This document shows positions 2,369 to 64,000 of a DNA stretch of 64,000 nucleotides, in pieces. This DNA is from a virus. The DNA is taken from the IMG/VR virus record IMGVR_UViG_3300022698_000267, positions 209,564 to 273,563 of that record. One strand, written 5' to 3'. The first letter of the stretch is position 1, and every line of letters starts with the position of its first letter. Position numbers and translations under genes: made by a program. Below the pieces are notes generated by a model. That model saw nothing but the letters and a program-made list of their open reading frames with translations. It did not search any database and was not told the DNA's origin.

Positions 2369-2416
2369 AATACTAAATAAATGGTGATATGTCTATTTTG
2401 CGTATCACCATTTTTA
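2369..2416 (+). terminator. AATACTA motif followed by hairpin with T-run
   Basis: An AATACTA heptamer (2369-2375), a recurrent intergenic motif in this genome, is followed by an inverted repeat. Its arms are aaatggtgata (2379-2389) and tatcaccattt (2403-2413), with T-rich sequence after it. The hairpin fits a weak intrinsic terminator for the ssDNA-binding protein transcript. If AATACTA is a promoter -10 element, the hairpin would instead lie in the leader of the caspase gene that starts at 2434. Confidence 0.5.
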
Positions 2417-2433
2417 TTTACGGGGGAATTACG

Positions 2434-33028: not shown

Positions 33029-33042
33029 ATGGGGGATTTAAA

Positions 33043-33789: not shown

Positions 33790-33816
33790 CCCGTGGGTTT
33801 CCCCACGGGTCTTTTA
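33789..33816 (+). terminator. Strong intrinsic terminator
   Basis: A perfect 8-bp GC-rich stem, CCCGTGGG (33790-33797) with CCCACGGG (33802-33809), a four-base loop and the run tctttta. It ends the rightward operon. The reverse orientation lacks a strong T-run, so it primarily serves the plus strand; the minus-strand nrdJ ends right behind it at 33818. Confidence 0.92.
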
Positions 33817-33817
33817 T

Positions 33818-36103: not shown

Positions 36104-36115
36104 TTACGTCCCCCA

Positions 36116-36958: not shown

Positions 36959-37023
36959 AAGACTCCTCCAATTTTTTTATTTAATTTAGTAGATTAGTTT
37001 TAATTTCCAAACTAAGTAAAACA

Positions 37024-37053
37024 TTGACAAAACTTCTAGGGAAGTTCTAGATT
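37024..37053 (+). promoter_or_regulatory. Sigma70-type promoter before the kelch gene
   Basis: TTGACA (37024-37029), an 18-bp spacer and TAGATT (37048-37053) form a plausible promoter in the divergent region between the ThyA-like and kelch genes. A small inverted repeat AACTTC/GAAGTT lies in the spacer and TTCTAG occurs twice, which could be an operator. Confidence 0.5.
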
Positions 37054-37078
37054 CATTTTCGATGTTTTGGAGGCAGAC

Positions 37079-44812: not shown

Positions 44813-45343
44813 ATGGCTGCAGATCTGAATTTTCGATTAACAGGCGGTTCCTCCAATAGTGATCCAGATTCTTCTATTGGAGGAGTAATGAGTAGTGTCA
44901 ACGTTAGTTCTTCACCAATGAATAATCTTTTTGATGACATCACTGCTGCAGAGGCTGCACAAAGTGTTGGTTATGAAGATTATAGAGCAATTGATATTTA
45001 CAATAGTGGAGATGCTACGGCTGAGTCAGTTTCTATTTGGGTTTCTTCACCAACTGTAAGTGAAGATTCTCATTTAGAAATTGGATATGACACATCTTCT
45101 AAGGATGGTTCCAATTCTGGTGCCACATCACACACAGCTAGTTGGAATGGAGAAGTTTTGTCGTCTGTTCTAGAACCTACTTCCCCATCTATATCTTTTT
45201 CTACTAGATACTCTGGAAGTGAGTTAGCACTCCCGGATATTCCAACGTCAGAAGCTATTCGAGTATGGATAAAAAGAGTCATTGATAGTGGTGCTGGCAA
45301 TTTAGCAAATGACTTGGCCTCCATAAAAATTAAGTATGCTTAA
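44813..45343 (+). CDS. Probable virion protein
   Basis: A 176-residue protein following GGAGGGGG. It is acidic, beta-rich, with the phrase YRAIDIYNSGDATAESVSIWVSSPTVSEDSHLEIGYD, a layout common in phage structural proteins that carry a single Ig-like sandwich, and the closing LANDLASIKIKYA. It directly precedes the 3620-residue gene and may be its partner in the fibre. Confidence 0.65.
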   Translation: MAADLNFRLTGGSSNSDPDSSIGGVMSSVNVSSSPMNNLFDDITAAEAAQSVGYEDYRAIDIYNSGDATAESVSIWVSSPTVSEDSHLEIGYDTSSKDGSNSGATSHTASWNGEVLSSVLEPTSPSISFSTRYSGSELALPDIPTSEAIRVWIKRVIDSGAGNLANDLASIKIKYA

Positions 45344-45372: not shown

Positions 45373-48300
45373 ATGTCCAGAATTTTTATAGATGGTTTTG
45401 AATCTGGTGACACTTCCACTTGGGATGTTGATACAACTAATGGCATAATTATTGATGGAGACGGTTATTCCCCTATTTCTGGAAATTATTCATTAGCCCC
45501 ACCTGGAAATATAGTTAAAACTCTAACATCTCTGACAGATGAAATCTATTTTGGGTTCAATTTATACACCAAACAAGATGTTGGAGTTGTTGGAAATGGT
45601 TCTGGTCTTAAAATAAGCATTACTTTAGAAAACGATCAAGAACTGTTTACTAATGGACTCTATATCATTTCACAAGATGGAAACTTACGGATTTTCTATG
45701 GTGGAGCTTCAGATCCGGCATGGTATGGTTATGTTAGAATAGAAGAACTAGATCCACCAATTCCTCTTCTTTCCGATATAAATAATTATCAATTTAGAAT
45801 TAAACAAAATTCTGATCTATCTGTTGTAATACAAACAAAAGTAAATGGGTCAGTGCAATATGATATTGTGGCTTCCCAATCTTCTTATTTAGCAAATGCA
45901 GTTTCAAATATAAAGAAGATTGGTTTTCAACCATTGTATGAAGACATTGCTGTTAGTTATAAATATGCATGCCTTGATGACATAGTTATTGATTCTTCGG
46001 AATGGCCTGGACAGTCAAGAATTGTAGCACTGCTTACAGAATCAAATGTTTCTGTTGAATGGGAAAAATATCCTACAACAACGGAAAGTAATGCTGTTGC
46101 AGTTCAACCTTTAAATAGCGCAGGAGTTTACTCAGCTACAGATTCTGCTGAGGATTTATATTCAATTGCAGATTTACCAATTGAAGAAACTGATATAATA
46201 AAATCAGTAGCAGTGGGGGCAAAATCTAAAAGTCCAGATTCTAGATATTTAAAAATTTCAGTAAAAACGAACGGTTCAACATATAGGAATTCTTCCCATG
46301 CTTTAACACCCACTTATTCAAAACCAATTGACATTTGGGAAATTAATCCAGATACAGGGTTAGAATGGTCCATTTCTGATATTAATAATCTTCAGATTGG
46401 ATTTATGTTAGTTAATTCTAGTTCATCATCCAGTAGTAGTTCATCATTAAGTTCAAGTAGTTCAAGTAGTAGTAAATCTTCAAGTTCTAGCTCTAGTAGT
46501 TCAAGCTCAAGTAAATCATCGTCTTCAAGCAGTTCAAGCTCAAGTAAATCATCAAGTTCAAGTAGTTCAAGCTCAAGTAAATCATCATCTTCAAGTAGTT
46601 CAAGCTCAAGTAAATCATCGTCTTCTAGCAGTTCAAGCTCAAGTAAATCATCGTCTTCAAGTAGTAGTAAATCATCATCTTCAAGTAGTAGTAAATCATC
46701 ATCTTCAAGTAGTTCAAGTTCAAGTAGTTCAAGTAGTAGTGAATCATCAAGTTCAACTATTCCTTGGCTAGGAAGTTGGGCTAATAGAGTAGAATTGACT
46801 ATAGATTCAACAAAAATTGATGAAACTTTAACAGATTTTCCAGTAACTATTCAATTAGGATCTTCAGTTGGAATAACTTCTGCTGATACAACTGCTGTGT
46901 TTGATGAACTTACTTCGGATGCTAACCGGAAAAAGATTGCCATCACAACCTCCGATGGTACGACACAGTGCTATGCTGAAATAGAAAAATGGGACGATGC
47001 CAACGAGCAAGCCGTCCTCCATGTAAAAGTCCCCTCCGTAAGCGATTCTGCTGACACCATTCTCTACCTGTATTACGATTCAGCACAATCAGACAATACC
47101 TCATATGTCGGTGACACCACCGATGCTGTAACGCATAATGTCTGGGATTCCAATTTTGCTGGTGTTTGGCACATGGCGCAAGATCCGAATGGTGATGTGG
47201 CTGGTGCGATAAAAGATAGTACAGTGAATGCTAACGATGGGACCCCGGCAGGGAGTATGACCACTGCGGATCTTGTGGCAGGACAGGTGGGGGATGGTAT
47301 TGATTTTGATGGATCAGATGATTATATAGAAATTCCTTTCGATACTTCTCTAAATAGTGATTCAACAACAATCGAGGGGATTGCTTCTCCATACAGCACA
47401 CAAGGGGACACATATACGGTACTCACGTATCAAAATTCAGTCAAAGCCACTTACTACAAAAACACAGGCGATTTGCATGGGTGGGTTTTTACGTATGGAA
47501 CTTCCAATCTTCCCAAGGCTGAGTCAACAAATTCACCGTTTATAGATGATCAATTTTCACATTTTGCGATGACTTTTGATCAGTCCGATATTTACTTGTA
47601 TGTTGACTCTGTTCAGAAAGATACACAAACAAAATTAGGCGCAATTGATGATATAGAAAACGCTATTATAATTGGAAGTACTGGGAGCAATGAGTATTTT
47701 AAAGGCATCATCAACGAAGTCCGTATATCATCCACAGCTCGTTCAGCAGCCTGGATAAAAGCCACATACAACAGTCTTTGGGATACGCTGATTACTTTTT
47801 CAGCAGGTTCCAGTTCTTCTAGTTCTTCTTTAAGCAGTTCTAGTAATAGTTCTTCTTCTAGTTCTTCTAGTAACAGTTCTTCTTCTAGTTCATTAAGTAG
47901 TTCAAGTAGTTTAAGCCGTAGTTCTTCTTCAAGTTCTTCTTCCATTGTTTTACATAATGATTTTTCAGGTGATTCTAATTGTGTCGCTCTATATAGATTC
48001 GAATCTGGTGCATTAACGACAGATTCTATTGGAACAAACACTCTTACCGATAATAACACTGTCGGAACATCCCTGGTAGATGTTAAAGAAGGAGGGGCTT
48101 GTGCTGATTTTGAGCGTGACAATGACGAGTATTTTTCCATAACAGATGCCAACCTTGACGCTGATTTTCCATTAAAATCAGGCTATACGAATAAGAAAAT
48201 ATCAATATGCTTTTGGTTCAAAACAGAAACAGTTCCTGTGGCTTATGGGCTGGAGTTCTTCGCCAAATATATGGCTGCTGAAAACACAAGGTCAATTCAG

Positions 48301-51300
48301 TCTCTTGTGCAGTATGGGGGAAATGTAATATTATCCATTGGTCATACCAGTGGAACAGCGGGTGAAGTGTTGCATAATGCAGGAACACTTGTTAATGGTA
48401 GATGGTATCATTATGCTGCAACTTTTGACGATACTGATAAATCATGGAAGCTTATAATATGGGATGATACAGATGGGAGTAAAGTCATAAATGCTTCTGG
48501 TACAGCAACAAATAATATAAGTATAACTGATGCTGGTTTTTATATTGGAGCATCTCCTGCTGCTAATTATGAGTTTGATGGATTGATGGATGAATTTGTA
48601 GTTTTTAAAGACATCCTGACAACAGATGAAATTGATGCTATCCGCACTGGAACATATAATGTGATTAATCCTGCTGATTGGGCTAATAATCTTGAATTAA
48701 CTATTGATTCATCCAAGATCGATTCAGACCTCACAGACTTCCCTGTTACAATTCAACTAGGATCTTCTGTTGGAATTACTTCTGCGGATACTGCTGCTGT
48801 ATTTGATGAACTTACTTCTGATGCTAATAGAAAGAAAATAGCTGTTACAGATTCGTCATATCGGCAATTGTTCGTTGAAATTGAAAAATGGGATGATGCT
48901 AATGAGACCGCTGTTCTTCATGTAAAAGTTCCTTCAATATTAGCAGCTTCAGATACTACTCTTTACCTATTTTACGATTCTACACAATCAGATAATACAT
49001 CATATGTTGGTGACACCACTGATGCCGTAACTCATAACGTTTGGGATTCAAATTTTGAAGCCGTTTATCATATGGCGCAAGATCCTAACGGTGACGGTGC
49101 TGATGCAATAAAAGACAGTACAAGCAACGCCAATGATGGGACTCCTGCTGGAAGCATGACGACTGCTGATTTAGTGGCAGGTAAAATTGGTAATGCCATT
49201 GATTTTGATGGAACAGACGATTATATCAACTGCGGAAACGCAATAGCAACCGCAGCGCCTTCGCTACCTTTTACGCTTGAAGCGGTTGTCTATAAAGACT
49301 CTTCTATTGGCGGTTACAATGACGGTGACGGATATGATGGAATTATAAACCTAGACCAGCACGCCTCTACATATTATGGGTTATGGTTTGGGCTGTCGGC
49401 TAAAAGCACCGATTATAAGTTTAATGCTAATTTTGGAGACGGTACTGGGGCAACAGCAGAAGACAGAAGAAGTGCCAGTACAACAAATTATGTAGTTGAG
49501 GCCGACGCTTGGTCTTGTATCGCAGGCGTAGTCGAGGATGCGACTACTTTTACTCTTTATGATGCAGGGTCTTCTGTTGCAGCACCAACTTCTGGAACTG
49601 GTGGCACTATAGCTTGGAACGGTGGTGATTTTAATATAGGTCGTCAGAGTATAGAATTATCTCGTGTATTCGGTGGTAAAATATGTGAGATTCGTGTTTC
49701 TTCATCAGCCCGTTCAGCAGCATGGATCAAAGCAACATATAATAGTCTTTGGGATTCTTTATTAACATTTACAGAAGAAAGTAGTTCTAGCAGTTCCTCT
49801 AGTTCATTAAGTAGTTCTAGCAGTTCCTCTAGTTCATTAAGTAGCTCTTCTTCTATATATCCTTGGTTAGGAACATGGGCTAATAGAATACAGCTTACAA
49901 TAGATTCTTCTAAAATAGATGAAACTTTAACTGACTTTCCAGTTACGATTCAGCTTGGTACAGCTTCTGGAATTACTTCTGCAGACACAACAGCGGTTTT
50001 TGATGAACTTACTTCTGATGCTAATAGAAAGAAAATAGCTGTTACAGATTCATCATATCGTCAACTATTCGTTGAGATAGAAAAGTGGGATGATGCTAAT
50101 GAAACTGCCGTTCTTCATGTAAAAGTTCCAAGTATATCTTCTTCAGTAGATACCACACTATATCTGTTCTATGATTCTACTCAGGATGATAATACCTCCT
50201 ATGTTGGCGACACCACTGATACCATAACGCACAACGTGTGGGATTCCAACTTCGTAGCCGTTTATCATATGTCACAAGATCCCAACGGAGATGCTTCTGG
50301 GTCGATAAAAGATAGTACCAGTAACACAAATGATGGGACTCCTGCCGGTAGCATGACAACGGCCGATCTTGTGTCTACGCAGGTTGGATATGGGTTAGAC
50401 CTTGATGCTTCAAATGACTATTTAGAGTTAATGTCTGTACCATCCGGTGTTTTGTCCACAGAATATACGGTAGAATCACTAACATATTTAGATTATGCCT
50501 ATCGCCAATCATTGTTTATTCAAGCAGCAGACGGCAACGAAGTTGACATCTGGCTTGGCACTGGCAGTGGCGACCAACTTATTTTTGGAGTAAAGAACAC
50601 GGACCAACAAACTATTGGTGAAACTGTCGTTTCTACAGGCTCTCTTTATGCCGTTGGGACATATGATGGAACTAATTTTAGGCTTTATAAAGATGGGAGT
50701 TTAGATGCAGGACCTACCGAAAGAACTGTAGCATTTCCAGATACGGCAGAATCTGGTTGGGTTGGTACTTTTAATAACAATGAGAGTTGGGCTGGATATT
50801 CTAATCTTAAATCAGATGAAGTCCGCATTTCATCAACCGCCCGTTCAGCGGCATGGATCAAGGCCACCTACAATTCTTTATGGGATTCTTTATTAACATT
50901 TAGTGAATCTAGTAGTAGTTCTTCAAGTAGTTCAAGTTCTTCTTCTAGTTCAAGTAGCAGTTCATCTTCAAGTAGTTCAAGTTCTTCTTCTACTGTTTTA
51001 CATAATGATTTTTCAGCAGATAATAATTGTGTTGCTTTATGGAGATTTGAATCAGGAGCACTAACTACTGATTCTATAGGCACAAATACTTTAACAGAAA
51101 ATAATACAATTACTGCCGACACTTCTAATTTTAAGGAAGGTAATGCTTCAGCTAACCTTTATAATGGTAGTGGATATTTTTCAATTGACGATATTGACTT
51201 AGATTCTGATTTTCCTTTAAAATCTGGTGCAACAAATCCAAAGTTTAGCATTTGTGGATGGTTTTATCCAAATGTTCTTAACGATGATGTGGTTTTTTCT

Positions 51301-54300
51301 AAATGGGATTATGGTACTAATGAGAGAACATTTATTTTTACTATTCATAGTGGAAGTGGACTTGGTGTATCTGCTGGAACAACTGATGGTTCAACTGCTG
51401 AAACCATTTACACAGGAGGATCTTTTGGTTCTAGTCGTTGGTATCACTTTGCATTTACTTATGATGATTCAGACAAATCATGGAAATTAGTTGTTTGGGA
51501 TGATTCGAATCAAATAAAAAATGTTAATGAAAGTGGAACACTGACAAACAATATGTTCTTTGGAGATGCCAAAGTTGGGTTAGGAGAATATTTTAACAAT
51601 GGTAGCGCTCCTGGAGCTAATTTTGGTGGCAGGATAGACGAATTCGTTGTATTCAAAGATGTCCTTACTACTGTTGAAATAGACCAAATAAGATCAGGAA
51701 CTTACGTGGGGACAAGTTCGAGTATGAGTTCTTCAAGCAGTTCAAGCAGTTCAAGCAGTTCAAGCGAATCTTCAAGTTCGAGTAGATCTTCAAGTAGTAG
51801 TGAATCTTCAAGTAGTAGTGAATCTTCAAGTAGTTCAAGCGAATCTTCAAGTTCAAGTAGCATAACGTCTGAATCTCCCTACACAAAAGTTCTACTTCAT
51901 TTTAATGGAACTGATGCAAGTACGGAATTTATTGATGAGACAGGAAAAATATGGACAGCTTATGGTAATGCACAATTAGATACAACCCAAAAGAAATTTG
52001 GAACTGCAAGTGGATATTTTGATGAGAATACTGAAACATACATTCATACAACAACTGATGTTGCTTTTGGAACGAATCCTTTTACAATTGATTTTTGGGT
52101 AAGATTCGCAGCAACAATTTCTGACAGTCAGGCTCTTGTAGAACTTGGTGATTCCAGCGGCTACTCTAGATATTTTTCAATCTATCATTATTCCGATTCT
52201 ACACTTCGAATAATGCGTAGAGAAGAGGGTGGAAGCAGTGTTACTGATACTTTTTCTTGGACTTATACTGAAAATACTTGGTATCACATAGCAATTACTA
52301 GAGATTCTTCAGGTAATTTAAGGGTATTTATAAATGGAACTCAACTTGAATCTACAATTACAGGTGTCACCTATAATTATCCAAATAGTGGTGGTGTTTA
52401 CGTAGGAAGGCACTATGGTTGGAATATACCTCTTCATGGTTGGATAGATGAATTAAGAATTGTTAATGGCATAGCTGAATGGACAGAGAATTTTACACCT
52501 CTTCATATTGAGTATAGAAAAAGTTCAAGTAGTAGTTCATCATCAAGTAGTAGCTCTAGTAGCAGTAAATCTTCAAGTTCAAGTAGTTCTTCAAGCAGCA
52601 GTAAATCTTCAAGTAGTTCATCATTTTCAGAAAGTTCTCAACCATCAGAGGCATCAAGAACATTCTATCCAGTATCTTCAGAGGATGATGGATTCTCCTA
52701 CAATACGTATCTTTATAATGATCGGGATTACTTATCATGGGGATATCAAGGTAATGGAATAAAAACAACCGTCTACTTTAGATTTCCTAATTTTCTAGTA
52801 CCACAAGGAACAGAAATTCTTTCTGCGTATTTAAAGGTAACCAGCAAATCGAATTCAAGTGCGGCAGTTTATTATAATATCTATGGAAATGACATTGATG
52901 ATGCTGTTAATCCAACCGATTATACTTGGATGACTGGGTTTGATAAAACGACAGCCTTTGTGGCATGGGATGTGACTGATGAATGGGTTGCTGGAACTCA
53001 ATATGACTCACCAAGTTTAATAGATATTATACAAGAAATAGTGGATAGACCTGGTTTTGAAAGGGGCAATGCAATACTAATTGGACTTTGGGATGATGGA
53101 TCTTCATCTTTACCGGGAAGACAATTTTCTTCTGTTGACTATAGTAGTGGAAGTCAAAAAGCCGAATTACATGTCACATATGTATCTCAGTCATTGAGTT
53201 CATCTTCAAGTAGCTCATCTTCAAGTAGTAGTGAATCATCAAGCTCGAGTAGCAGTACAAGTTTATCATCCAGTTCCTCTTTTGAATCAACTGATGCAGG
53301 AATTTATTACCCAGCAGCTTCAACTGATGATGGACATTATGCTATTTTAAGATCATTTAATACAGATGGAAATTCTGTAATAATTGGACAGGACAATCAG
53401 GTAAGTGGGACGAGATACACGACTTGGTTCCGTTTTCCGAATGTTACTGCACGTCCCGGATTTACAATAACTTCAGCTTTTATTCGTTTCACTGCATATG
53501 CGTCTAATCCAGATACTGGAGTTAGAAGCACCCACATTTATTTTAATGCTCATGATAATGCAGTTGCTCCTACTGATTCTACTGAATTGTTAGCCCTTGA
53601 TAAAACTACTGCAAAAGTATTGTGGACTGATTCTATTCCATGGGTAGATGGAACAACGTATGATACTCCAGATATTTCTAGTCTAGTCCAAGAAGTTATT
53701 GATAGACCTGGATGGGGTTACAACAAACCTTTAATGGCTATTTTTGTAGAAGAAACTCCTGTCAGTGAAAGTTGGACTCAAAGAGAATGTTCTGCTTTCG
53801 ATTACAATGGAGGCGCAGAAAAAGCCGAACTTCATCTTGAATGGGGTGCAATTTCTGTATCAAGTAGTTCATCATCAAGTTCGTCAAGTTCAAATAGTTC
53901 TTCTAGCAGTTCTAGCAATTCTTCCTCTAGTTCAAGCAGCAGCAAATCATCAAGCAATGGAGATGACGAATACACCAAATCATTATTACACTTTAATGGA
54001 ACAGATCAATCTACAACATTTACAGATGAATCAACTAAAATTTGGACTCCATATGGTGGTGCACAACTTGACACATCTCAAAGAGTTTTTGGAACTGCTT
54101 GTGGATATTTTAATGGAACAGATGGATACATTTCTACCCCAGTTACGAGCGATCATAATTTTGGGACCGGAGATTTTACTATTGATTGTTGGATATGGTT
54201 TGACAGAATTGACACTGATTATCAATTTAGATACTTTACTATTGGGACTTGGGGACAAGGACCGGGAATTCAAGTTGGTAGATCACAAATTTATATAGGA

Positions 54301-56235
54301 GGATACACAGGAAATTGGACTGCTACCTCTTGGGATGATCTTTATACTTGGCATCATTGGGCATTAGTAAGGTATAGTGGAAATGTCAAATTATTCATTG
54401 ATGGAAATCAAGTTGGAAGTACTCTAACTATCACTAATAATATTGCACCTGTTGGGGAATGTTGGATTGGACGTGCAAATACTGGTTACATGCAGGGCAG
54501 GATTGACGAATTTAGAGTAACCAAAGGTATAGCTAGATGGACAAGTAATTTTACACCTCCAACGGTTGAATATGGTGGGACAGGCAGTAGCTTCTTTAGC
54601 TCAAGCAGCAGTTCATCGTCAAGTTCAAGCAGCAGCTCAAGCAGCAGTTCAAGCAGCAGTTCAAGCAGCAGTTCATTATCAAGCTCCAGTAGCAGTTCAA
54701 GTAGCAGTTCATCTAGCAGTTTAAGTTTTTCAAGTTCATCAAGCAGCTTATCATCAAGCTCAAGCAGCTTATCGTCTAGTAACGGTGATGATGAATTTAC
54801 TAAAGTACTTCTTCATTTCAATGGAACAGATGAAAGTACAACATTTACAGATGAATCAGGAAAAACTTGGACTGCTAATGGTAATTCACAACTAGATACT
54901 TCACAAAGGGTATTTGGCACAGCTTCTGGTAAATTCGATGGTTCAATTGATACATTCATCAATACAGCGCTCAGTTCTGATTTTTATTTTGGTACTGGAG
55001 ATTTCACCATTGATTTTAGGCTTTACTCAGAACAATCATTTGCGACCACTAAGGGTTTACTTGACTTAGGTTCTAAGTATAATAATGGTTTAAATTTAGC
55101 TTACCAATCTGGTGCTTTTAGAATAGTGACTGTAAATCAAAATTTTGTGTTTTCCACTTCACTTGATACAGGAACTTGGTATCATATTGCACTTACGAGA
55201 GCAAATGGAAATTTACGATTTTTTGTCGATGGAACACAAATAGGTGCAACTGGATCTTCGACAGATATAATTTCACCAATTGGTGGTTACACCAGGATAG
55301 GTCAAAGTCAAGATGTTGGGGTAACAGCAAATTGTCAGGTAGATGAATTTAGAATTAGTAATATAGCTCGCTGGACTTCTAATTTTACACCACCTACAGT
55401 AGAATATGGTGGAACAGGAAGTAGTTTATTCAGCTCATCTTCTAGCAGTTCAAGTAATAGTTCATCATCAAGTTCAAGTAGCTCATCATCAAGCTCTAGT
55501 AGTTCTAGATCAAGTAGTAGTTCAAGTAGTAGTTCAAGTAGTAGTTCAAGTTCAAGTAGTCAATCTATATCAAGTTCAAGTAGTTCAAGTTCTTCTAGTT
55601 CAAGCAATAGTTCATCTTCTGAATCATCTTCAAGCTCATTTAGCTCAAGTAGTAGCTCTAGCAGTTCAAGTAGTATGTCAATGAGTGTATCCTCTAATAC
55701 ATTCTACGTCACTACTGGCTCTGATGATCTTTATTGGTATATGAGTGGTGGTGGAGATGTCGTGGATGATGCTATCGAAATTTCAATGGCTGGTGAAGAC
55801 AGAGCACTATTTAGATTTAATAATATCAATATTCCTCAAGGCGCAACAATCACTTCTGCAGTATTTAAATTGTATTGTATGGGATGGGGCGATACTTTTG
55901 ATCTAGACATATATGCAAATGATGTCGATAATGTAACTACATTGCCAACCACAGATGCAGAAGGTGATGCATTAACACTAACAAGTGCATCTGTAGCTTT
56001 TACAATTAATGGTTCTTGGGATGAAGATACTCAACGCACTACTCCAAGTTTAGTTAGTATAATACAAGAAATCGTAAGTAGACCTGGTTGGTCATCTGGA
56101 AATTCCATCGCATTACTTGTTTTCAATGATGATCCAAATTACTATTCAGTAGATCTCCTACCCTATGAAGCAGTGGCAGATGAAACGTATACCAATGTTA
56201 CTGCACCAGAATTATACATTGAATGGACAACTTAA
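45373..56235 (+). CDS. 3620-residue modular lectin/poly-Ser giant protein
   Basis: A single frame encoding a modular adhesin-like fibre protein. After a ~340-residue beta-rich head come modules separated by poly-Ser linkers (Ser-rich with occasional K, E, N, R or L). By nucleotide, DUF2341-type modules (WANRxELTIDSxKID..LTDFPVTIQL, QSDNTSYVGDTTD) lie at 46763, 48670 and 49860, each followed by a LamG-like part with GSDDYI. LamG-like modules (DF..D.NCVALYRFESGALTTDS) lie at 47945 and 50996. A second LamG type (LLHFNGTD) lies at 51880, 53961 and 54785. DNRLRE-like modules (TFYPVSSEDDGFS, WxxDxxRPGFxxGN) lie at 52650, 53290 and 55690. Glycan binding is the likely job. The ribosome site is weak. 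Confidence 0.85.
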   Translation: MSRIFIDGFESGDTSTWDVDTTNGIIIDGDGYSPISGNYSLAPPGNIVKTLTSLTDEIYFGFNLYTKQDVGVVGNGSGLKISITLENDQELFTNGLYIISQDGNLRIFYGGASDPAWYGYVRIEELDPPIPLLSDINNYQFRIKQNSDLSVVIQTKVNGSVQYDIVASQSSYLANAVSNIKKIGFQPLYEDIAVSYKYACLDDIVIDSSEWPGQSRIVALLTESNVSVEWEKYPTTTESNAVAVQPLNSAGVYSATDSAEDLYSIADLPIEETDIIKSVAVGAKSKSPDSRYLKISVKTNGSTYRNSSHALTPTYSKPIDIWEINPDTGLEWSISDINNLQIGFMLVNSSSSSSSSSSLSSSSSSSSKSSSSSSSSSSSSKSSSSSSSSSSKSSSSSSSSSSKSSSSSSSSSSKSSSSSSSSSSKSSSSSSSKSSSSSSSKSSSSSSSSSSSSSSSESSSSTIPWLGSWANRVELTIDSTKIDETLTDFPVTIQLGSSVGITSADTTAVFDELTSDANRKKIAITTSDGTTQCYAEIEKWDDANEQAVLHVKVPSVSDSADTILYLYYDSAQSDNTSYVGDTTDAVTHNVWDSNFAGVWHMAQDPNGDVAGAIKDSTVNANDGTPAGSMTTADLVAGQVGDGIDFDGSDDYIEIPFDTSLNSDSTTIEGIASPYSTQGDTYTVLTYQNSVKATYYKNTGDLHGWVFTYGTSNLPKAESTNSPFIDDQFSHFAMTFDQSDIYLYVDSVQKDTQTKLGAIDDIENAIIIGSTGSNEYFKGIINEVRISSTARSAAWIKATYNSLWDTLITFSAGSSSSSSSLSSSSNSSSSSSSSNSSSSSSLSSSSSLSRSSSSSSSSIVLHNDFSGDSNCVALYRFESGALTTDSIGTNTLTDNNTVGTSLVDVKEGGACADFERDNDEYFSITDANLDADFPLKSGYTNKKISICFWFKTETVPVAYGLEFFAKYMAAENTRSIQSLVQYGGNVILSIGHTSGTAGEVLHNAGTLVNGRWYHYAATFDDTDKSWKLIIWDDTDGSKVINASGTATNNISITDAGFYIGASPAANYEFDGLMDEFVVFKDILTTDEIDAIRTGTYNVINPADWANNLELTIDSSKIDSDLTDFPVTIQLGSSVGITSADTAAVFDELTSDANRKKIAVTDSSYRQLFVEIEKWDDANETAVLHVKVPSILAASDTTLYLFYDSTQSDNTSYVGDTTDAVTHNVWDSNFEAVYHMAQDPNGDGADAIKDSTSNANDGTPAGSMTTADLVAGKIGNAIDFDGTDDYINCGNAIATAAPSLPFTLEAVVYKDSSIGGYNDGDGYDGIINLDQHASTYYGLWFGLSAKSTDYKFNANFGDGTGATAEDRRSASTTNYVVEADAWSCIAGVVEDATTFTLYDAGSSVAAPTSGTGGTIAWNGGDFNIGRQSIELSRVFGGKICEIRVSSSARSAAWIKATYNSLWDSLLTFTEESSSSSSSSSLSSSSSSSSSLSSSSSIYPWLGTWANRIQLTIDSSKIDETLTDFPVTIQLGTASGITSADTTAVFDELTSDANRKKIAVTDSSYRQLFVEIEKWDDANETAVLHVKVPSISSSVDTTLYLFYDSTQDDNTSYVGDTTDTITHNVWDSNFVAVYHMSQDPNGDASGSIKDSTSNTNDGTPAGSMTTADLVSTQVGYGLDLDASNDYLELMSVPSGVLSTEYTVESLTYLDYAYRQSLFIQAADGNEVDIWLGTGSGDQLIFGVKNTDQQTIGETVVSTGSLYAVGTYDGTNFRLYKDGSLDAGPTERTVAFPDTAESGWVGTFNNNESWAGYSNLKSDEVRISSTARSAAWIKATYNSLWDSLLTFSESSSSSSSSSSSSSSSSSSSSSSSSSSSSTVLHNDFSADNNCVALWRFESGALTTDSIGTNTLTENNTITADTSNFKEGNASANLYNGSGYFSIDDIDLDSDFPLKSGATNPKFSICGWFYPNVLNDDVVFSKWDYGTNERTFIFTIHSGSGLGVSAGTTDGSTAETIYTGGSFGSSRWYHFAFTYDDSDKSWKLVVWDDSNQIKNVNESGTLTNNMFFGDAKVGLGEYFNNGSAPGANFGGRIDEFVVFKDVLTTVEIDQIRSGTYVGTSSSMSSSSSSSSSSSSSESSSSSRSSSSSESSSSSESSSSSSESSSSSSITSESPYTKVLLHFNGTDASTEFIDETGKIWTAYGNAQLDTTQKKFGTASGYFDENTETYIHTTTDVAFGTNPFTIDFWVRFAATISDSQALVELGDSSGYSRYFSIYHYSDSTLRIMRREEGGSSVTDTFSWTYTENTWYHIAITRDSSGNLRVFINGTQLESTITGVTYNYPNSGGVYVGRHYGWNIPLHGWIDELRIVNGIAEWTENFTPLHIEYRKSSSSSSSSSSSSSSSKSSSSSSSSSSSKSSSSSSFSESSQPSEASRTFYPVSSEDDGFSYNTYLYNDRDYLSWGYQGNGIKTTVYFRFPNFLVPQGTEILSAYLKVTSKSNSSAAVYYNIYGNDIDDAVNPTDYTWMTGFDKTTAFVAWDVTDEWVAGTQYDSPSLIDIIQEIVDRPGFERGNAILIGLWDDGSSSLPGRQFSSVDYSSGSQKAELHVTYVSQSLSSSSSSSSSSSSESSSSSSSTSLSSSSSFESTDAGIYYPAASTDDGHYAILRSFNTDGNSVIIGQDNQVSGTRYTTWFRFPNVTARPGFTITSAFIRFTAYASNPDTGVRSTHIYFNAHDNAVAPTDSTELLALDKTTAKVLWTDSIPWVDGTTYDTPDISSLVQEVIDRPGWGYNKPLMAIFVEETPVSESWTQRECSAFDYNGGAEKAELHLEWGAISVSSSSSSSSSSSNSSSSSSSNSSSSSSSSKSSSNGDDEYTKSLLHFNGTDQSTTFTDESTKIWTPYGGAQLDTSQRVFGTACGYFNGTDGYISTPVTSDHNFGTGDFTIDCWIWFDRIDTDYQFRYFTIGTWGQGPGIQVGRSQIYIGGYTGNWTATSWDDLYTWHHWALVRYSGNVKLFIDGNQVGSTLTITNNIAPVGECWIGRANTGYMQGRIDEFRVTKGIARWTSNFTPPTVEYGGTGSSFFSSSSSSSSSSSSSSSSSSSSSSSSSSLSSSSSSSSSSSSSSLSFSSSSSSLSSSSSSLSSSNGDDEFTKVLLHFNGTDESTTFTDESGKTWTANGNSQLDTSQRVFGTASGKFDGSIDTFINTALSSDFYFGTGDFTIDFRLYSEQSFATTKGLLDLGSKYNNGLNLAYQSGAFRIVTVNQNFVFSTSLDTGTWYHIALTRANGNLRFFVDGTQIGATGSSTDIISPIGGYTRIGQSQDVGVTANCQVDEFRISNIARWTSNFTPPTVEYGGTGSSLFSSSSSSSSNSSSSSSSSSSSSSSSSRSSSSSSSSSSSSSSSSSQSISSSSSSSSSSSSNSSSSESSSSSFSSSSSSSSSSSMSMSVSSNTFYVTTGSDDLYWYMSGGGDVVDDAIEISMAGEDRALFRFNNINIPQGATITSAVFKLYCMGWGDTFDLDIYANDVDNVTTLPTTDAEGDALTLTSASVAFTINGSWDEDTQRTTPSLVSIIQEIVSRPGWSSGNSIALLVFNDDPNYYSVDLLPYEAVADETYTNVTAPELYIEWTT
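46500..46690 (+). repeat. 33-bp-type tandem repeat encoding poly-Ser/Lys linker
   Basis: A run of near-identical units of about 33 bp, each reading as ten Ser codons and one Lys (AAA). They are built from interchangeable agt, tca, tct, agc, tcg codons. Several units are identical over more than 20 bp, so recombination or slippage here would change linker length without breaking the frame. Similar but less regular poly-Ser tracts recur throughout 47806-62210. Confidence 0.85.
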
Positions 56236-56278: not shown

Positions 56279-56362
56279 ATAAATGCTAAAGAAGATTGTA
56301 ATGTTGTTCCTTCCTCAAGTAGTTCAAGTTCGAGTAGCTCGAGCAAATCATCAGTAAATTAA
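56279..56362 (+). pseudogene. Remnant of a poly-Ser linker coding sequence
   Basis: An out-of-frame short stretch after the 3620-residue gene that still reads as INAKEDCNVVP followed by eleven Ser, then KSSVN and a stop. It is closed upstream by TGA at 56276 with no start codon. It looks like debris of a former extension or of a deleted fibre gene, left between the two giant genes. Confidence 0.6.
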
Positions 56363-56637: not shown

Positions 56638-59600
56638 ATGCCATCAACCAACAATTTTACAAATGATCCTAATTGCGTAGCCCTCTGGCGGTTTGAAGAC
56701 GGGGCGCTGACCACTGACTCAATCGGGACAAATACCCTCACTGATAATAACACTGTCGGCACATCTACGGGCGATTACAAAGAAGGGTCTGCTTGTGCTG
56801 ATTTAGATCATGTAAACAGCGAATATTTTTCTATCGCTGATGATGAGCTTGATTCTGGGTTTCCTATTAAATCTGGTGCTTCTAGTATAAAGTTTAGTTG
56901 TTGTGGATGGTTTAAAGCTGGGACTTTGGGGAACTACTATGGAATTATTTCAAAATACGATTACGGAAACTCTGGTAGAACTTTTATAGTACAAAGTGAC
57001 TCGTCCTCTAATTTTTCAGTTGCAATCGGATATAATTCTGGTCAAAATGGTGAAACCTTAGAAAATTCGTATCATTTATCTTCTGGAAAATGGTATCATT
57101 TTGCATTTACATTTGATAATAGTGACAATTCATATAAAATTGTTCTTTGGGACGATTTTATAGGTTCAAAAGTTGTAAATGTTAGTGGAAATGCAACAAA
57201 TAGTATTTATCCCGCTGCTGGAACATTAGGAATTGGAGCTTATTTCAATTCTGATTCGCCGGTGGCCGTATGGGACGGCCTAATAGATGAAGTAGTAGTT
57301 TTTAAAGACATCCTGACTACTGAAGAAATTGATTTAATAAGACAAGGTCAATATGTAGGAACAAGTTCTTCCAGTATTTCAAGTAGTAGTTCTTCAAGCT
57401 CCAGCAGTTCATCAAGTTCAAGCAGCAGTAGATCATCAAGTTCAAGTAGTTCTTTAAGCAGCAGTAGATCATCAAGTTCAAGTAGTAGTTCAAGTGAATC
57501 ATCAAGCTCAAGTAGCAGTAGAAGTTCTTCTTCTAGTTCTTCTTCCACTGTTTTGCATAATGATTTTTCAGGTGATTCTAATTGTGTTGCTCTATATAGA
57601 TTTGAAGATGGAGCATTAACGACAGATTCTATAGGCACAAATACGCTTACTGACAATAGTACCGTTGGTCAATCTCTGGTAGACGCAAAGGAAGGTGCAG
57701 CTTGTGCTGATTTTGATGAAATCAATTCCGAGTACTTTTCAATAGCCAATGCTGACCTAGACAGTGGTTTTCCTCTCAAAAATGGAGATACAAATAAAGT
57801 AATTAGTATTTGTGCATGGGTAAAATTTGAAAACGTTGTAGCTTCTCACCCTATTTTTTCTTTTTATGAATATGGGCTAAACAAGAAATCTATAGATATA
57901 GCGACTATCAATGCACCGAGTTTTCGTTTCAGAATAAGTTATGACGGTTCAAACACCGAAGTTCTTTATGAGGGTGGGACGCCTCAAACTGGTCGGTGGT
58001 ATCATGTAGGTGCGACATTCAACGATTCGGATAAGTCATGGCAGTTTGTCGTGTGGGACGATACCGCAAGCAGCAAGATAATAGACCAAAGTGGTACTGC
58101 AACCAACAATATTTATGTTACTGATGGCCCTCTTAGTATTGGCGCATGGTTGGATAATGGCAGCCCAGGAGTAGGGCTTCATGATGGCTTAATGGATGAA
58201 GTTGTCGTTTTCAAAGATGTATTAACCACGGATGAAATTGATTTAATAAGACAAGGACTTTATGTTGGAGTTTCATCTTCCAGTAGTTCAAGTAGCTCTT
58301 CTTCAAAATCAAGTAGTTCAAGTAGCTCTTCTAGTTCATTAAGTAGTTCAAGTTCTTCTTCAAGTAGTTCTAGTAGTAAAGCTTCAACAGATTCTGGAAC
58401 TTTTTATCCGGTGGTCGGAGAAGATGATGGATTTGCATATTCAACAACCCTTTATAATGATAAGAATTATTTTGAAATTGGTAGAATTACAACATCTGGA
58501 TCTATTGCATTTATAAGATTTCCAAATCTCAATATTCCAGCAGGATCAACAATTATTACGGCAATGTTGAGACTTACTTGCTATCAAACTTCTTCTTCAA
58601 CTACTGTTAATTTAAAAATTAATTTTAGTGATGTTGATAATGCTACAATTCCAGTTGATAGATATGAGGTGCAAGGTTTAACTTTAACTACAGCTACTAC
58701 AAATTGGAGTTCTGTTCCTGGATTTAGTAATGGAGTGAAATATGATAGTCCAAGTATTATTGCACCTTTACAAGAAATTATAGATAGAGGAGGTTACGAA
58801 TCAGGAAATGCTGTAATGGCTGTCATATCAGACAATGGCAGTTCAAATTATGCTTATAGATTTATATCTACACTGGAATATAATTCAGGAACAGAAAAGC
58901 CAGAATTATATGTTGAGTGGGTTGAACCTTCTACTTCTTCTAGTTCTTCTTCTACTTCTTCTAGTTCTTCTAGTTCTTCTAGTTCTTCTTCTGCTGTTTT
59001 GCATAATGATTTTTCAGCAGATAATAATTGTGTAGCTTTATGGAGTTTTGAATCTGGTGCATTAACTACTGATTCTATAGGAACAAATACGCTCACAGAC
59101 AATAATACTGTAGGAACGTCTACAGGTGATTATAAGGAGGGAGCTGCTTGTGCTGATTTAGAACTTAGCAACTCTGAATACTTTAGCATTACTGATGCTG
59201 ACCTTGACAGTGGATTTCCTTTAAAAAGTAGTTCCTCATCCAAATCCTTTAGTATTTGTGGCTGGTTTAAATGTAGGTCAATAGATGCAAACATGCAGAT
59301 TTTTGCAAAACGGGAGTCAGACTACAGGACCGTTTATTGTTATATATTGAACAGCGGAGATGAATTCCAATTTGCAATTGGAGTCGGCACAGGGACTTCT
59401 GAATTACTTTACAGTGGACTGACACTGACAGTTGGAAGATGGTATCATCTTGGGTTTACATATAATGACGCTAATAGGTCATGGATGTTAGTTCTTTGGG
59501 ACGATACTTCTGGGACTAAGATTGTCAATACAAGCGGAACTGCAACTGATAATATTTTTGTTAATGATGCTACGTTTGCAATCGGGTCGAGAGTTTTAGA

Positions 59601-62600
59601 TGGAACACCTGATAGTTTCTTTGATGGCCTGATAGATGAAGTAGTTGTTTTCAAAGACATCCTGACTACAGATGAAATTGATGCTATTAGGGAAGGAATC
59701 TATATTGGAACAAGTAGTTCTTCAAGTTCTTCAAGTTCTTCTTCCAGTTCAAGTAGTAGTTCAAGTAGCTCTTCTAGTTCTTTGAGTATATCTTCTTCGA
59801 GTTCAATTTATCCTTGGTTAGGGACTTGGGCTAATAGAATAGAATTAACAATAGATTCTTCTAAAGTTGATTCTAATTTAATTGATTTTCCAGTGATGAT
59901 TAAGCTATCAACATCTTCAGGAATAACTTCTGCTGATGTTACTGCTGTATTTGATGAATTAGCTTCAGATGCAAATAGAAAGAAAATAGCTGTTACAGAT
60001 TCTGGTTGTAATCAGCTTTATGTAGAAATAGAACTTTGGGACGATGCAAATGAAGAAGCATGGTTACATGTTTCTGTTCCTTCAGTTTCTAGTTCTGTGG
60101 ATACTACTTTATATTTATTTTATGATTCAACTCAATCAGATAATACTTCTTACGTAGGAGATACTAATGATTTAGCAGCTCAAACTGTTTGGTCAGAAGG
60201 ACAATATAAAGCTGTTTATCACATGGAACAAGATCCTAATGGAGATGTTGCTGATGCTATAAAAGATTCAACAGTAAATGCAAATCACTTAACCCCTTCT
60301 GGATCAATGACTACTGCTGATTTAGTTCCAGCACAAACAGGTAAAGGGATTGATTTAGATGGAATTAATGATAAATTAGTAAATTCATCTTATTCAGAAA
60401 ATATGGGTTATTGGTTGGTTGAAGCAGTTGTTTCTTTTGGTTCTTCATATCGCCAGCCCATAGTTGTACTTGGAGAAGCTAGTGATGCTTTTGATGTTGA
60501 TATAGCTACTGGATCTGGAAGTACGCTTCTTACATCTACAAGAACAAGTGCTACATTCAACACTACTTCTGGGAGTTCAACAGAACCTGCAACAGATGGA
60601 ACATTTTACCATGTGGCAAGTGTATATGATGGAACTGATTTAATTTTATATGTCAATGGAACTGAAGTAGCTTCTACGACAGGAGATGAGTATTCTACTG
60701 GAAGGACTGGATTAGTTTTAGGATATGGGAATAATTTATATGGTTGGGGAGAAGTATGGCATGATGGAATTATATCTGAACTTAGAATAAACGGATCACG
60801 TTCTGCAGGATTTGTTAAGGCTTCTTATAATAGTTTGTTTGATTCTTTGGTTACTTTTTCTGAAAGTGAAGTTTCAAGTTCTTCTTCAAGTTCATTAAGC
60901 ATTTCTTCTTCAAGTTCGAAAGGTTCAGATAGTATTTCCAGTTCTTCTAGCTCTTCAAGCAATTCTTCTTCTAGTTCTTCAAGCTCTAATTATCCTTGGT
61001 TAGGAACATGGGCTAATAGAATACAACTTACAATAGATTCTTCAAAAATTGATGAAACTTTAACTGACTTCCCAGTGACGATTCAGCTTGGCACGGCTTC
61101 TGGTGTTGGTGATGCTGATACGTCAGCAGTTTTTGATGAACTAACCTCCGATGCTAATAGAAAGAAAATAGCTGTTACAGATTCTAGTTATAATCAACTT
61201 TATGTCGAAATTGAAAAATGGGATGATGCAAATGAAATCGCCGTCCTCCATGTAAAAGTTCCTTCCGTCTCAAGTTCTGCTGATACCACTTTATATCTGT
61301 TCTATGATTCTACTCAGGATGATAATACATCCTATGTAGGAGACACCACCGATGCTGTTACGCATAATGTTTGGGATTCTAATTTCGTTGGTGTCTGGCA
61401 CATGGCTCAAGATCCAAATGGTGACGCTTCTGGAGCGATAAAAGATTCTACATCAAACGGAAATGACGGAACTCCTAACGGAACTATGACCACGGCTGAT
61501 CTTGTCGCTGGTAAAATCGGGGATGGAATTGATTTTGATGGGTCTGATGATTGGATAGAATTGACGAATACGGCTGGTTTGTCCCCTGAAGCTGGTAACG
61601 TAACTGTCGAAGCCATCGCGTCAATCGATGCGCTTGGGTCTACCCATCATTTATTTACAAATTACGATTCAGACATAACGTCTGTTTATAATTTATATAT
61701 ATCTTCTGTGAACGTAGGTGGAGCATTCTTTAGGGACGAAGACTCAGATTCCGCATCTGCTGTGGGTTCATCTGGGATTTCTGGCTCTACTTTTTATTAT
61801 TTTGCCGGGGTTCGGGACGGCACAACCGCATATATTTATAAAGATGGTTCACAAGATGGGACAGCCACGAATGCCAGTTTGGGGACTATCAGCACGAACG
61901 TTGGATCACCTCCGGTAATAGGATGCCAAAAATACAACATTGCAGAATATAATCATTGGGATGGTGTTATATGTGAAATTCGCATATCCTCAACAGCCCG
62001 TTCAGCAGCATGGATCAAAGCTACCTACAATAGTCTTTGGGATTCGCTGATTACGTTTTCAGAAGAAAGTAGTTCTTCATCAAGTTCGAGTAGTAGTTCA
62101 AGTAGCAGTAGATCATCAAGTTCGAGTAGTAGTTCATCATCAAGTTCAAGTTCATCTTTTAGTTCATCTTCTAGTAGCTCAAGTGAATCATCAAGCTCAT
62201 CTAGTAGATTAACATTAGGAAATAATGATTTTAGTAGTGATAGTAATTGTGTAGCTTTATGGAAATTTGAAGAAGGTGCATTAACGACTGATTCAATCGG
62301 GACAAATACGCTCACCGATAACAACACAGTAGGTACAAGCACTGGTGACTATAAGGAGGGGTCTGCGTGTGCGGATCTTGAACTTAGTAATTCAGAGTAT
62401 TTTTCTATTACAGATACAAACCTTGATGCTGGATTCCCATTAAAAGATGGTGACTCAAACAAGAAAATAAGTGTCTGTCTTTGGTTTAAAATAGAGAGTT
62501 TAGCATCAACAGGTGTGCTTTTTAACAAATGGGATTATTCATATAGTGATAGATCAATAGTATTAATGGCTACTGATACGCCAAATTTTGTATTAGCTGC

Positions 62601-64000
62601 TGGGCATACTAGCGGAACCGATGGAGAAAATCTGTATCTTGATGGTACTCCTCAAACTGGCAGGTGGTATCATGCCGGATTTACATATGACGACACAGAT
62701 AAAAGTTGGCAATTGGTTATATGGGATGATACGGCTGGTAGTAAAGTTGTTGATACTTCAGGTACAGCAACAAACAATATCAATGTATGCGATGCCCCGC
62801 TTACTATTGGAGCGATGCTTGGGCTTGGGAACCCTGTAAATATTTTTGACGGTTTAATAGACGAAGTAGTTGTCTTCAAAGACATCCTGACCACGGATGA
62901 AATTGACGAAATCCGTGCTGGAACATACGGCATCCTTGATACGGGTAGTTGGGCCAACAGCATCGAACTCACCATCGACTCATCCAAAGTTGATTCCGAT
63001 CTTGAAGATTTCCCCGTTACAATTCAACTTAATTCATCTTCAGGTATTGGTTCTGCTGATGTTACCGCTGTCTTTGATGAACTTGGATCTGACAGCAAGA
63101 AGATCGCTGTCACCGATTCCAGTTATCGCCAGTTATTCGTTGAAATAGAGAAGTGGGACGATACCGGAGAAGAGGCTGTCCTCCATGTAAAAGTACCCTC
63201 TGTTTCAAGTTCTGCCGACACGGTTTTATATCTCTATTACGATTCTACTCAATCAGATAATACTTCATATGTTGGTGACACCACCGATGCTGTAACACAT
63301 AATGTTTGGGACTCTAACTTTGTCGCTGTTTATCATATGTCTCAAGTTCCGAATGGTGATGTTGCAGACGCTATTAAAGATTCAACGTCAAATGCTAATA
63401 ATGGTACACCCGATGGGTCTATGACCACTGCTGATCTAGTGTCAGGTCAAGTTGGTGATGGAATTGAATTTGATGCAGTAGATGATGCCATTATTGTTCC
63501 AAATCATGCTACTCTTAACTTCGGGACCGGAGATTTTACATTTGAGACGATTATTAAAACGTCTGATCCTGTTTCAAGGCTCATCTATAAAGGAATACAT
63601 ACCGATTCAGGTGATGGTTATTATCGAGTGTATTTAAGAAGTTCTGACCCTTATGTTCGTGTTACAGTTGATAATGTATCTACTGAAATCCAATCAGATG
63701 ATCAGCCAATAGATTATGCAGACAATTCTTATCATTATATAGTTGGTCAAAGAGATGGGGATTATTTACGGGTTTTTGGAGATGGTGCTGAGAAAGGAAC
63801 TGCAATATCTGGTGCAAATGCCATTGATGTTGACAATAATAATGCTTTTTATATTGGTAATGATGAAGGTAATTCTGCAACTTCTAAGATAATGGATGAA
63901 GTTCGCATTTCAAATATAGTCCGTTCAGCCGCTTGGATAAAAGCCACCTACAACAGCCTCTGGGATTCTTTATTAGAGTATTCTGTTGAAGCAGTAAGTT
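56638..64000 (+). CDS. Second modular lectin/poly-Ser giant protein (3' partial)
   Basis: A continuous frame from ATG 56638 to the window end, at least 2454 codons with no stop. It repeats the module types of the preceding giant: LamG-like modules (NCVALWRFEDGALTTDSIGTNTLTDNNTVGTS) at 56650, 57546, 58995 and 62219; DUF2341-type modules at 59810, 60990 and 62940, each with a LamG-like part; and one DNRLRE-like module at 58386. They are joined by poly-Ser linkers, except that the last LamG and DUF2341 modules abut directly near 62940. The start follows AGAGGGA. Segments differ sharply in G+C (for example 56680-56780 and 62940-63200 are GC-richer). A glycan-binding tail fibre is likely; the C-terminus is not seen. 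Confidence 0.85.
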   Translation, partial: MPSTNNFTNDPNCVALWRFEDGALTTDSIGTNTLTDNNTVGTSTGDYKEGSACADLDHVNSEYFSIADDELDSGFPIKSGASSIKFSCCGWFKAGTLGNYYGIISKYDYGNSGRTFIVQSDSSSNFSVAIGYNSGQNGETLENSYHLSSGKWYHFAFTFDNSDNSYKIVLWDDFIGSKVVNVSGNATNSIYPAAGTLGIGAYFNSDSPVAVWDGLIDEVVVFKDILTTEEIDLIRQGQYVGTSSSSISSSSSSSSSSSSSSSSSRSSSSSSSLSSSRSSSSSSSSSESSSSSSSRSSSSSSSSTVLHNDFSGDSNCVALYRFEDGALTTDSIGTNTLTDNSTVGQSLVDAKEGAACADFDEINSEYFSIANADLDSGFPLKNGDTNKVISICAWVKFENVVASHPIFSFYEYGLNKKSIDIATINAPSFRFRISYDGSNTEVLYEGGTPQTGRWYHVGATFNDSDKSWQFVVWDDTASSKIIDQSGTATNNIYVTDGPLSIGAWLDNGSPGVGLHDGLMDEVVVFKDVLTTDEIDLIRQGLYVGVSSSSSSSSSSSKSSSSSSSSSSLSSSSSSSSSSSSKASTDSGTFYPVVGEDDGFAYSTTLYNDKNYFEIGRITTSGSIAFIRFPNLNIPAGSTIITAMLRLTCYQTSSSTTVNLKINFSDVDNATIPVDRYEVQGLTLTTATTNWSSVPGFSNGVKYDSPSIIAPLQEIIDRGGYESGNAVMAVISDNGSSNYAYRFISTLEYNSGTEKPELYVEWVEPSTSSSSSSTSSSSSSSSSSSSAVLHNDFSADNNCVALWSFESGALTTDSIGTNTLTDNNTVGTSTGDYKEGAACADLELSNSEYFSITDADLDSGFPLKSSSSSKSFSICGWFKCRSIDANMQIFAKRESDYRTVYCYILNSGDEFQFAIGVGTGTSELLYSGLTLTVGRWYHLGFTYNDANRSWMLVLWDDTSGTKIVNTSGTATDNIFVNDATFAIGSRVLDGTPDSFFDGLIDEVVVFKDILTTDEIDAIREGIYIGTSSSSSSSSSSSSSSSSSSSSSSSLSISSSSSIYPWLGTWANRIELTIDSSKVDSNLIDFPVMIKLSTSSGITSADVTAVFDELASDANRKKIAVTDSGCNQLYVEIELWDDANEEAWLHVSVPSVSSSVDTTLYLFYDSTQSDNTSYVGDTNDLAAQTVWSEGQYKAVYHMEQDPNGDVADAIKDSTVNANHLTPSGSMTTADLVPAQTGKGIDLDGINDKLVNSSYSENMGYWLVEAVVSFGSSYRQPIVVLGEASDAFDVDIATGSGSTLLTSTRTSATFNTTSGSSTEPATDGTFYHVASVYDGTDLILYVNGTEVASTTGDEYSTGRTGLVLGYGNNLYGWGEVWHDGIISELRINGSRSAGFVKASYNSLFDSLVTFSESEVSSSSSSSLSISSSSSKGSDSISSSSSSSSNSSSSSSSSNYPWLGTWANRIQLTIDSSKIDETLTDFPVTIQLGTASGVGDADTSAVFDELTSDANRKKIAVTDSSYNQLYVEIEKWDDANEIAVLHVKVPSVSSSADTTLYLFYDSTQDDNTSYVGDTTDAVTHNVWDSNFVGVWHMAQDPNGDASGAIKDSTSNGNDGTPNGTMTTADLVAGKIGDGIDFDGSDDWIELTNTAGLSPEAGNVTVEAIASIDALGSTHHLFTNYDSDITSVYNLYISSVNVGGAFFRDEDSDSASAVGSSGISGSTFYYFAGVRDGTTAYIYKDGSQDGTATNASLGTISTNVGSPPVIGCQKYNIAEYNHWDGVICEIRISSTARSAAWIKATYNSLWDSLITFSEESSSSSSSSSSSSSSRSSSSSSSSSSSSSSSFSSSSSSSSESSSSSSRLTLGNNDFSSDSNCVALWKFEEGALTTDSIGTNTLTDNNTVGTSTGDYKEGSACADLELSNSEYFSITDTNLDAGFPLKDGDSNKKISVCLWFKIESLASTGVLFNKWDYSYSDRSIVLMATDTPNFVLAAGHTSGTDGENLYLDGTPQTGRWYHAGFTYDDTDKSWQLVIWDDTAGSKVVDTSGTATNNINVCDAPLTIGAMLGLGNPVNIFDGLIDEVVVFKDILTTDEIDEIRAGTYGILDTGSWANSIELTIDSSKVDSDLEDFPVTIQLNSSSGIGSADVTAVFDELGSDSKKIAVTDSSYRQLFVEIEKWDDTGEEAVLHVKVPSVSSSADTVLYLYYDSTQSDNTSYVGDTTDAVTHNVWDSNFVAVYHMSQVPNGDVADAIKDSTSNANNGTPDGSMTTADLVSGQVGDGIEFDAVDDAIIVPNHATLNFGTGDFTFETIIKTSDPVSRLIYKGIHTDSGDGYYRVYLRSSDPYVRVTVDNVSTEIQSDDQPIDYADNSYHYIVGQRDGDYLRVFGDGAEKGTAISGANAIDVDNNNAFYIGNDEGNSATSKIMDEVRISNIVRSAAWIKATYNSLWDSLLEYSVEAVS

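Follow-up and report, generated by a model that had tools for sequence, protein, structure and literature searches.

Two neighboring genes at the end of a phage contig encode long chains of lectin-type modules strung on polyserine. We propose that gene A and gene B, the latter together with its putative continuation C, probably code for virion-surface multi-lectin adhesins of a T4-like huge phage, which most likely sit on the tail or baseplate and grip host glycans by avidity. Each chain would consist of independently folded modules (ConA-like LamG heads, some of them on a DUF2341 frame, and CBM-like DNRLRE domains) that are spaced by disordered polyserine tethers, and the many weak, differing sugar contacts made on these flexible tethers would confer avidity for diverse or changing host-surface glycans. 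The window analyzed here, 64,000 nucleotides in length, covers bases 209564-273563 of a virus record that has 273,563 bp and is classed as linear. Its phage origin, presumed when the protein was first described, is confirmed by the genes for a large terminase (phrog_2, E=5e-27) and a portal protein (phrog_213, E=2e-19) at 20.7-24.6 kb. Across the contig ends, these genes are ~17-20 kb beyond the arrays, and the T4-like terminase has only ~25% identity to its cyanophage homologues.

Gene A (45373..56235, plus strand, as are all modules of both arrays) is a single ATG-started frame of 3620 aa without internal stop. Cut at its serine-rich stretches, it comprises an N-terminal domain and 11 modules of four kinds: three DUF2341+LamG modules (termed D), two modules of a second LamG type (LamG-I, or I), three of a third LamG type (LamG-II, or II) and three DNRLRE-like modules (R). 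They follow the order N-D1-(I1-D2)-D3-I2-II1-R1-R2-II2-II3-R3, with ten polyserine linkers, 30-118 aa in length, between them. The unique N-terminal domain (45373..46407, 345 aa), a candidate virion anchor, has a weak relative in Brevundimonas phages (28% identity, E=3e-7). It is followed by the longest polyserine linker (46408..46761, 118 aa), inside which a 33-bp tandem unit is repeated 5.2 times, and by module D1 (46768..47790). Module I1 (47950..48657) is joined straight to D2 (48685..49770) without a Ser linker, after which come D3 (49867..50895), I2 (50998..51705) and II1 (51871..52512). The remaining part consists of R1 (52654..53181), for which AlphaFold2 and Foldseek indicate a CBM-type fold, R2 (53296..53847), II2 (53962..54579), II3 (54787..55410) and, at the C-terminus, R3 (55696..56232). 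Antisense ORFs across the array (47613-48152 on the minus strand and others) are regarded as chance by-products.

Profile searches against Pfam support this partition. Laminin_G_3 (PF13385) matches gene A in eight stretches, with an E-value of 2.8e-98 and 326.6 bits over a curated cut-off of 27.6, and DUF2341 (PF10102) matches in three, with an E-value of 2e-16 and 60.6 bits over a cut-off of 23.4; DUF2341 is present at seven places across the whole contig. At E<=0.1, genes A and B contain solely the LamG and DUF2341 families, with no glycoside hydrolase, lyase or esterase domain. The sequence-only reading had described a single 3620-residue protein in which eleven modules of four kinds, those of the same kind interleaved, hang on poly-Ser linkers. 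This description is correct for gene A in every point, yet incomplete as an account of the array, as the adjacent gene B and the opposite contig end hold more modules.

Gene B (56638..63999), which encodes a second array of 2454 aa, is open at the contig end and probably resumes at contig bases 9-4111. Its eight modules are of the same kinds as in gene A, in the order I-I-R-I-D-D-(I-D): I3 (56650..57357), I4 (57553..58263), R4 (58399..58926), I5 (58999..59703), D4 (59815..60855), D5 (60997..62055), I6 (62218..62934) and D6 (62944..63994), the last one on this side of the contig. At the other end of the contig (bases 2-4111, termed C), the sequence starts within a polyserine linker and continues with an (I-D) pair, two further linkers and a tail domain of 539 aa. 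The first 8 bp of the contig equal its last 8 bp (AGTAAGTT), and the overlap is in frame and yields a protein of ~3821 aa; gene B and C are thus probably one gene, even though the record is classed linear, and the genome may be circular or circularly permuted. In addition, an exact repeat of at least 40 bp links the contig end to base 1895, and an assembler would stop at such a repeat. Genes A and B(-C) together have 21 modules and 19 linkers. Between genes A and B lies a 17-codon orphan polyserine stretch (SSSSSSSSSSSKSSVN; 56312..56362, plus strand) that has a stop but lacks a start codon. It is the sole polyserine-coding stretch found outside ORFs in the contig, and it resembles a remnant left behind by a lost segment.

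Structure prediction, which had been proposed as a check of the modules, was run with AlphaFold2 on alignments built from the window and fetched viral sequences. The DUF2341+LamG model (pLDDT 87.8) adopts a ConA-like fold and the DNRLRE model (pLDDT 95.3) a CBM-like fold. The LamG part of the former matches domain 4 of AbnA (PDB 5hon), an arabinanase domain whose structure contains its ligand, as well as further lectin domains of the ConA-like type; query TM-scores are ~0.5 or less because the LamG half alone aligns. Matches to the receptor-binding lectin domains of clostridial toxins and to trans-sialidases reflect the common ConA fold only, and a kinship in function was therefore rejected. 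Structural similarity search of the DNRLRE module using Foldseek gave as best match a chondroitin-sulfate-binding CBM (8wab), with an E-value of 8.9e-6 and a TM-score of 0.66-0.68, and among the next-best matches the alginate-binding CBM96 (7vbo), with an E-value of 1.3e-4 and a TM-score of 0.58. The DNRLRE profile NF033679 also matches (E=1.4e-7), with R1 at 31.7 bits, below the curated cut-off of 34, R3 and R4 weaker at 18 and 21 bits, respectively, and R2 without a match. The DNRLRE family has already been tied to CBM96, whose alginate-binding groove includes Arg36 of TM6-N4 (PMC9971899); a sequence comparison toward this groove found no sequence match. Given the fold matches to AbnA domain 4, the chondroitin CBM and CBM96, the label "glycan-binding-type" that all four module kinds had received stands at the level of predicted folds and profile matches.

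The genomic surroundings of array relatives suggest a tail location, and the own neighbors of genes A and B are unassigned. The gene upstream of A (44813..45343, plus strand) is a phrog_13135 relative, and in locus L019 such a relative likewise directly precedes a DUF2341 protein, which indicates a conserved pairing; a search with the upstream gene found relatives at 46% only, without polyserine. The nearest array relative, a 1520-aa polyserine array on the 84-kb contig L055, opens with a module that shares 58-64% identity with LamG-I; genes for a tape-measure protein (phrog_28, E=2e-19) and a minor tail protein stand at the start of the region of this array. On L059, a relative of the central tail fiber J, itself ending in polyserine, is encoded no more than 0.8 kb downstream of a LamG-I/polyserine gene. 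The PHROG families that LamG-II matches bear baseplate-wedge or virion-structural annotations, although these labels stem from the LamG region and any LamG protein could inherit them. The N-terminal domain of gene A and the 539-aa C-terminal tail domain match no tail family, so that tail attachment is deduced from context and analogy, with L055 and L059 as the main ground for placing the arrays of the window's own phage on its tail. LamG-I itself looks phage-borne: a search for a cellular source gave one weak match in 84,980 genomes, in a first look by short exact motifs, which can miss relatives. Neither the T4-type late promoter TATAAATA in the window nor sigma-70 promoters and terminators in the array region occurred above chance level.

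The idea of bacteriophage adherence to mucus provides a precedent for a different target, namely that the arrays bind extracellular polysaccharide, mucus, biofilm matrix or detritus instead of a host receptor. The predicted modules are of kinds typical of binders of abundant polysaccharides, as seen for AbnA domain 4 and the alginate and chondroitin CBMs, and polysaccharide-degrading marine bacteria characteristically use polyserine linkers (PMC2699552). However, the arrays of the relatives reside in tail operons beside tape-measure, minor tail and J-type genes, the usual place of receptor binders, and we therefore consider matrix binding to be unlikely, though it deserves to be kept in mind. 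Less probable still is that the proteins are head decorations or other virion-structural fibers: some of the LamG-II matches in PHROG carry the category "head and packaging, virion structural protein", and on the probable circle the terminase and portal genes are located on the same side, but other LamG-II matches are baseplate wedge proteins, and the best-placed relatives are found in tail modules. A tail or baseplate adhesin that binds host glycans hence remains the preferred interpretation.

Comparison of the seven D copies revealed a conserved frame that holds a variable core. Protein identity is 69-92% over the DUF2341 part and the initial LamG strands, whereas the LamG core aligns poorly, at 10-30%, and the last 40 columns return to 54-69%. 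At fourfold sites in the conserved half, identity is 0.40, compared to 0.33 expected at saturation. With the protein conserved and silent sites near saturation, the DUF2341 frame is old and under purifying selection; recent homogenization among the copies is ruled out by the same value, with the exception of one tract. This gene-conversion tract, which D3 of gene A shares with the D module at contig 857-1927, spans 18 consecutive silent sites (p_global 0.002 in a silent-site run test). Moreover, some pairs of D copies share exact tracts of 53-61 bp.

Phylogenetic trees of the two halves differ. All seven DUF2341 halves cluster with moderate support, whereas the tree of the seven LamG halves, with very long branches, requires four changes and unites them in 0% of bootstrap trees; a single origin of the seven heads is nevertheless not rejected (AU p=0.135). 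For five of the seven heads, the best or only BLAST match is from another phage, and just two of the seven match any sister. The trees suggest head swapping among the D modules, with a single origin still compatible with the AU test. Hypermutation of the heads by a diversity-generating retroelement (DGR) was ruled out, because no reverse transcriptase (PF00078) matched in the 273,563-bp record, which may be incomplete. A possible agent of module exchange is the RecA-family recombinase of the phage (3303..4457, plus strand), a role that we infer. A scan with the N-terminal domain found no close relatives in which gain or loss of modules could be followed, and annotated phages gave no DNA match to the array phage.

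The sequence-only reading had also supposed that recombination between modules of the same kind could reshuffle binding specificity. In favor of it are the single gene-conversion tract, the exact tracts of up to 61 bp, the intergenic relic and RecA; the fourfold identity of 0.40 against 0.33 speaks against recent or frequent exchange. Module reshuffling that left traces in the sequence is thus plausible. The repertoire probably grew when modules were duplicated long ago within the lineage; the LamG cores would then have diverged strongly, or perhaps been replaced, in the conserved DUF2341/LamG frame, with module copies exchanging sequence now and then.

The linkers have an uncommon codon composition. 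The 19 linkers of genes A and B-C average 54.5 aa with 83.1% Ser, and tethers across the arrays are 25-118 aa long. The window contains 81 runs of 18 WSN codons, compared to 0.00 expected in shuffled sequences. AGY codons account for 50% of the 804 codons in runs of at least five Ser, compared to 28% of the 4,444 Ser codons in the rest of the genome; AGY and TCN codons cannot be interconverted by one silent change. Runs of at least four identical Ser codons are absent, against 10.5 expected on codon shuffling (p<0.0005), and the longest run is three, although the short tandem units of 12-33 bp within the linkers lower the number of independent codons in this test. Such mixed Ser codons, never four alike in a row, rule out that the linkers originated by slippage of one codon. 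It is very improbable, then, that the arrays are mainly products of neutral duplication and replication slippage with length and polyserine devoid of function, for although the tandem units and the numerous paralogous modules agree with that account, the missing homocodon runs, the raised AGY share, frames open across 3620 aa and purifying selection on DUF2341 oppose it.

The deficit of homocodon runs is also significant in the phage contigs L164, L177, L186, L187, L169 and L181, and not significant in L055, L111, L207 and L278, where loci from L152 upwards were gathered with a pattern that itself demands mixed codons once per locus. The linker codon pattern is therefore not a quirk of a single genome. 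We hypothesize that the linkers are held as serine at the protein level with codons mixed by selection against microsatellites, which would avoid unstable repeats. Two phage tRNA-Ser (UGA and GCU) possibly supply the linkers, but they are not specific to them, as the phage has ~20 tRNAs of most kinds. A scan of viral contigs with one mixed-codon serine motif, used as a DNA pattern, returned at least 120 stretches; many of the matches listed are polyserine proteins in structural regions, including LamG-polyserine genes on the 548-kb contig L155. A search of a literature library turned up no paper on polyserine phage adhesins. More speculatively, and with considerable doubt, the arrays might represent a widespread, undescribed class of virion adhesins of uncultured phages, in which selection-scrambled polyserine codons (AGY and TCN mixed, homocodon runs excluded) would keep the linkers stable in fast-replicating DNA and the conserved DUF2341 frame would accept swapped lectin heads, forming a modular, recombination-tolerant receptor library.

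Other serine-rich proteins were seen along the way. In the phage contig L278 (3099-9012), several adjoining genes have Ser linkers mixed with cysteine (SSSCSSSSC...). Conserved short genes in the structural regions of L166, L184, L188, L195, L201 and L220 each end in polyserine (e.g., xPAYKCPFKNNxG... followed by poly-Ser), which suggests that polyserine tails are a habit common to a phage group. The phage of the window also encodes a 2442-aa protein with a weak LamG match and a Ser-rich C-terminus (G000 30826-38154), as well as one of 623 aa that has a Ser linker in its interior (G000 170667-172538).

The individual parts of the arrays are already known, whereas their scale and serine-chain make-up are unusual. 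The polyserine-linked (PSL) carbohydrases of Saccharophagus degradans, Teredinibacter turnerae and Cellvibrio likewise carry glycan-binding modules on linkers of ~80-83% Ser, with 83% Ser over 44 aa in Teredinibacter and 80% over 39 aa in Saccharophagus (PMC2699552). Compared to these secreted bacterial enzymes, the arrays are encoded by phage genes, string together as many as eleven binding modules in one chain and lack a recognized catalytic domain. LamG and other lectin domains also occur in jumbo phage fibers, and LamG proteins of the tail fibers and baseplates of jumbo phages and cyanophages share the Laminin_G_3 fold; they are described with one or more LamG domains each, in passages that mention no polyserine spacing (PMC7824862), whereas here 21 modules on polyserine are spread over two neighboring genes. 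The DUF2341+LamG proteins in the tail regions of uncultured phages (L022-L054) show the same frame followed by a LamG head, but they are usually single, ~400-1300 aa long and without polyserine, as opposed to seven copies inside the arrays. Polyserine-spaced lectin modules in phage structural regions are found in L055 (1520 aa), L111, L155, L164 and L207 as well, with fewer lectin modules and other neighbors, and L055 clearly shares LamG-I alone (~60% identity). The arrays had at first been likened to adhesins of complex bacteria more than to normal fibers, which is fair with regard to size and linkers; however, LamG is common in phage tails and baseplates, and the PSL carbohydrases are the nearer match.

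Phage receptor binding is usually pictured as the task of a few rigid trimeric fibers with one specificity at the tip. A flexible string of ~10 different lectin modules per chain would represent another mode of attachment, in which specificity is spread over modules that could diverge or swap singly, with avidity coming from many weak contacts. The most surprising features are the codon pattern of the linkers and the divergence between frame and heads; the former would also provide a testable rule for the persistence of long single-residue linkers in DNA.

The phage has several further genes of note. A few genes upstream of the arrays, a protein of 1824 aa (window 37067-42541) contains many Kelch repeats (Kelch_KLHDC2, E=3.5e-55) that probably fold into β-propellers, and both its size and its domain are unusual for a phage virion region. 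A caspase-domain gene (window 2389-3294; Peptidase_C14, E=1.6e-28) adjoins the replication and recombination genes. The tRNA array includes a tRNA with the amber-reading anticodon CTA (G000 127867-127944, L014:7867-7944); TAG is nevertheless a common stop in the phage genome, terminating 49 of ~200 ORFs. A 1291-aa MASE3-PAS sensor-like membrane protein is encoded at G000 158136-162011. Moreover, the genes for PRPP synthetase (window 8040-8993) and nicotinate phosphoribosyltransferase (window 15951-17126) are suggestive of NAD salvage, which is employed by some phages against NAD-depleting defense.
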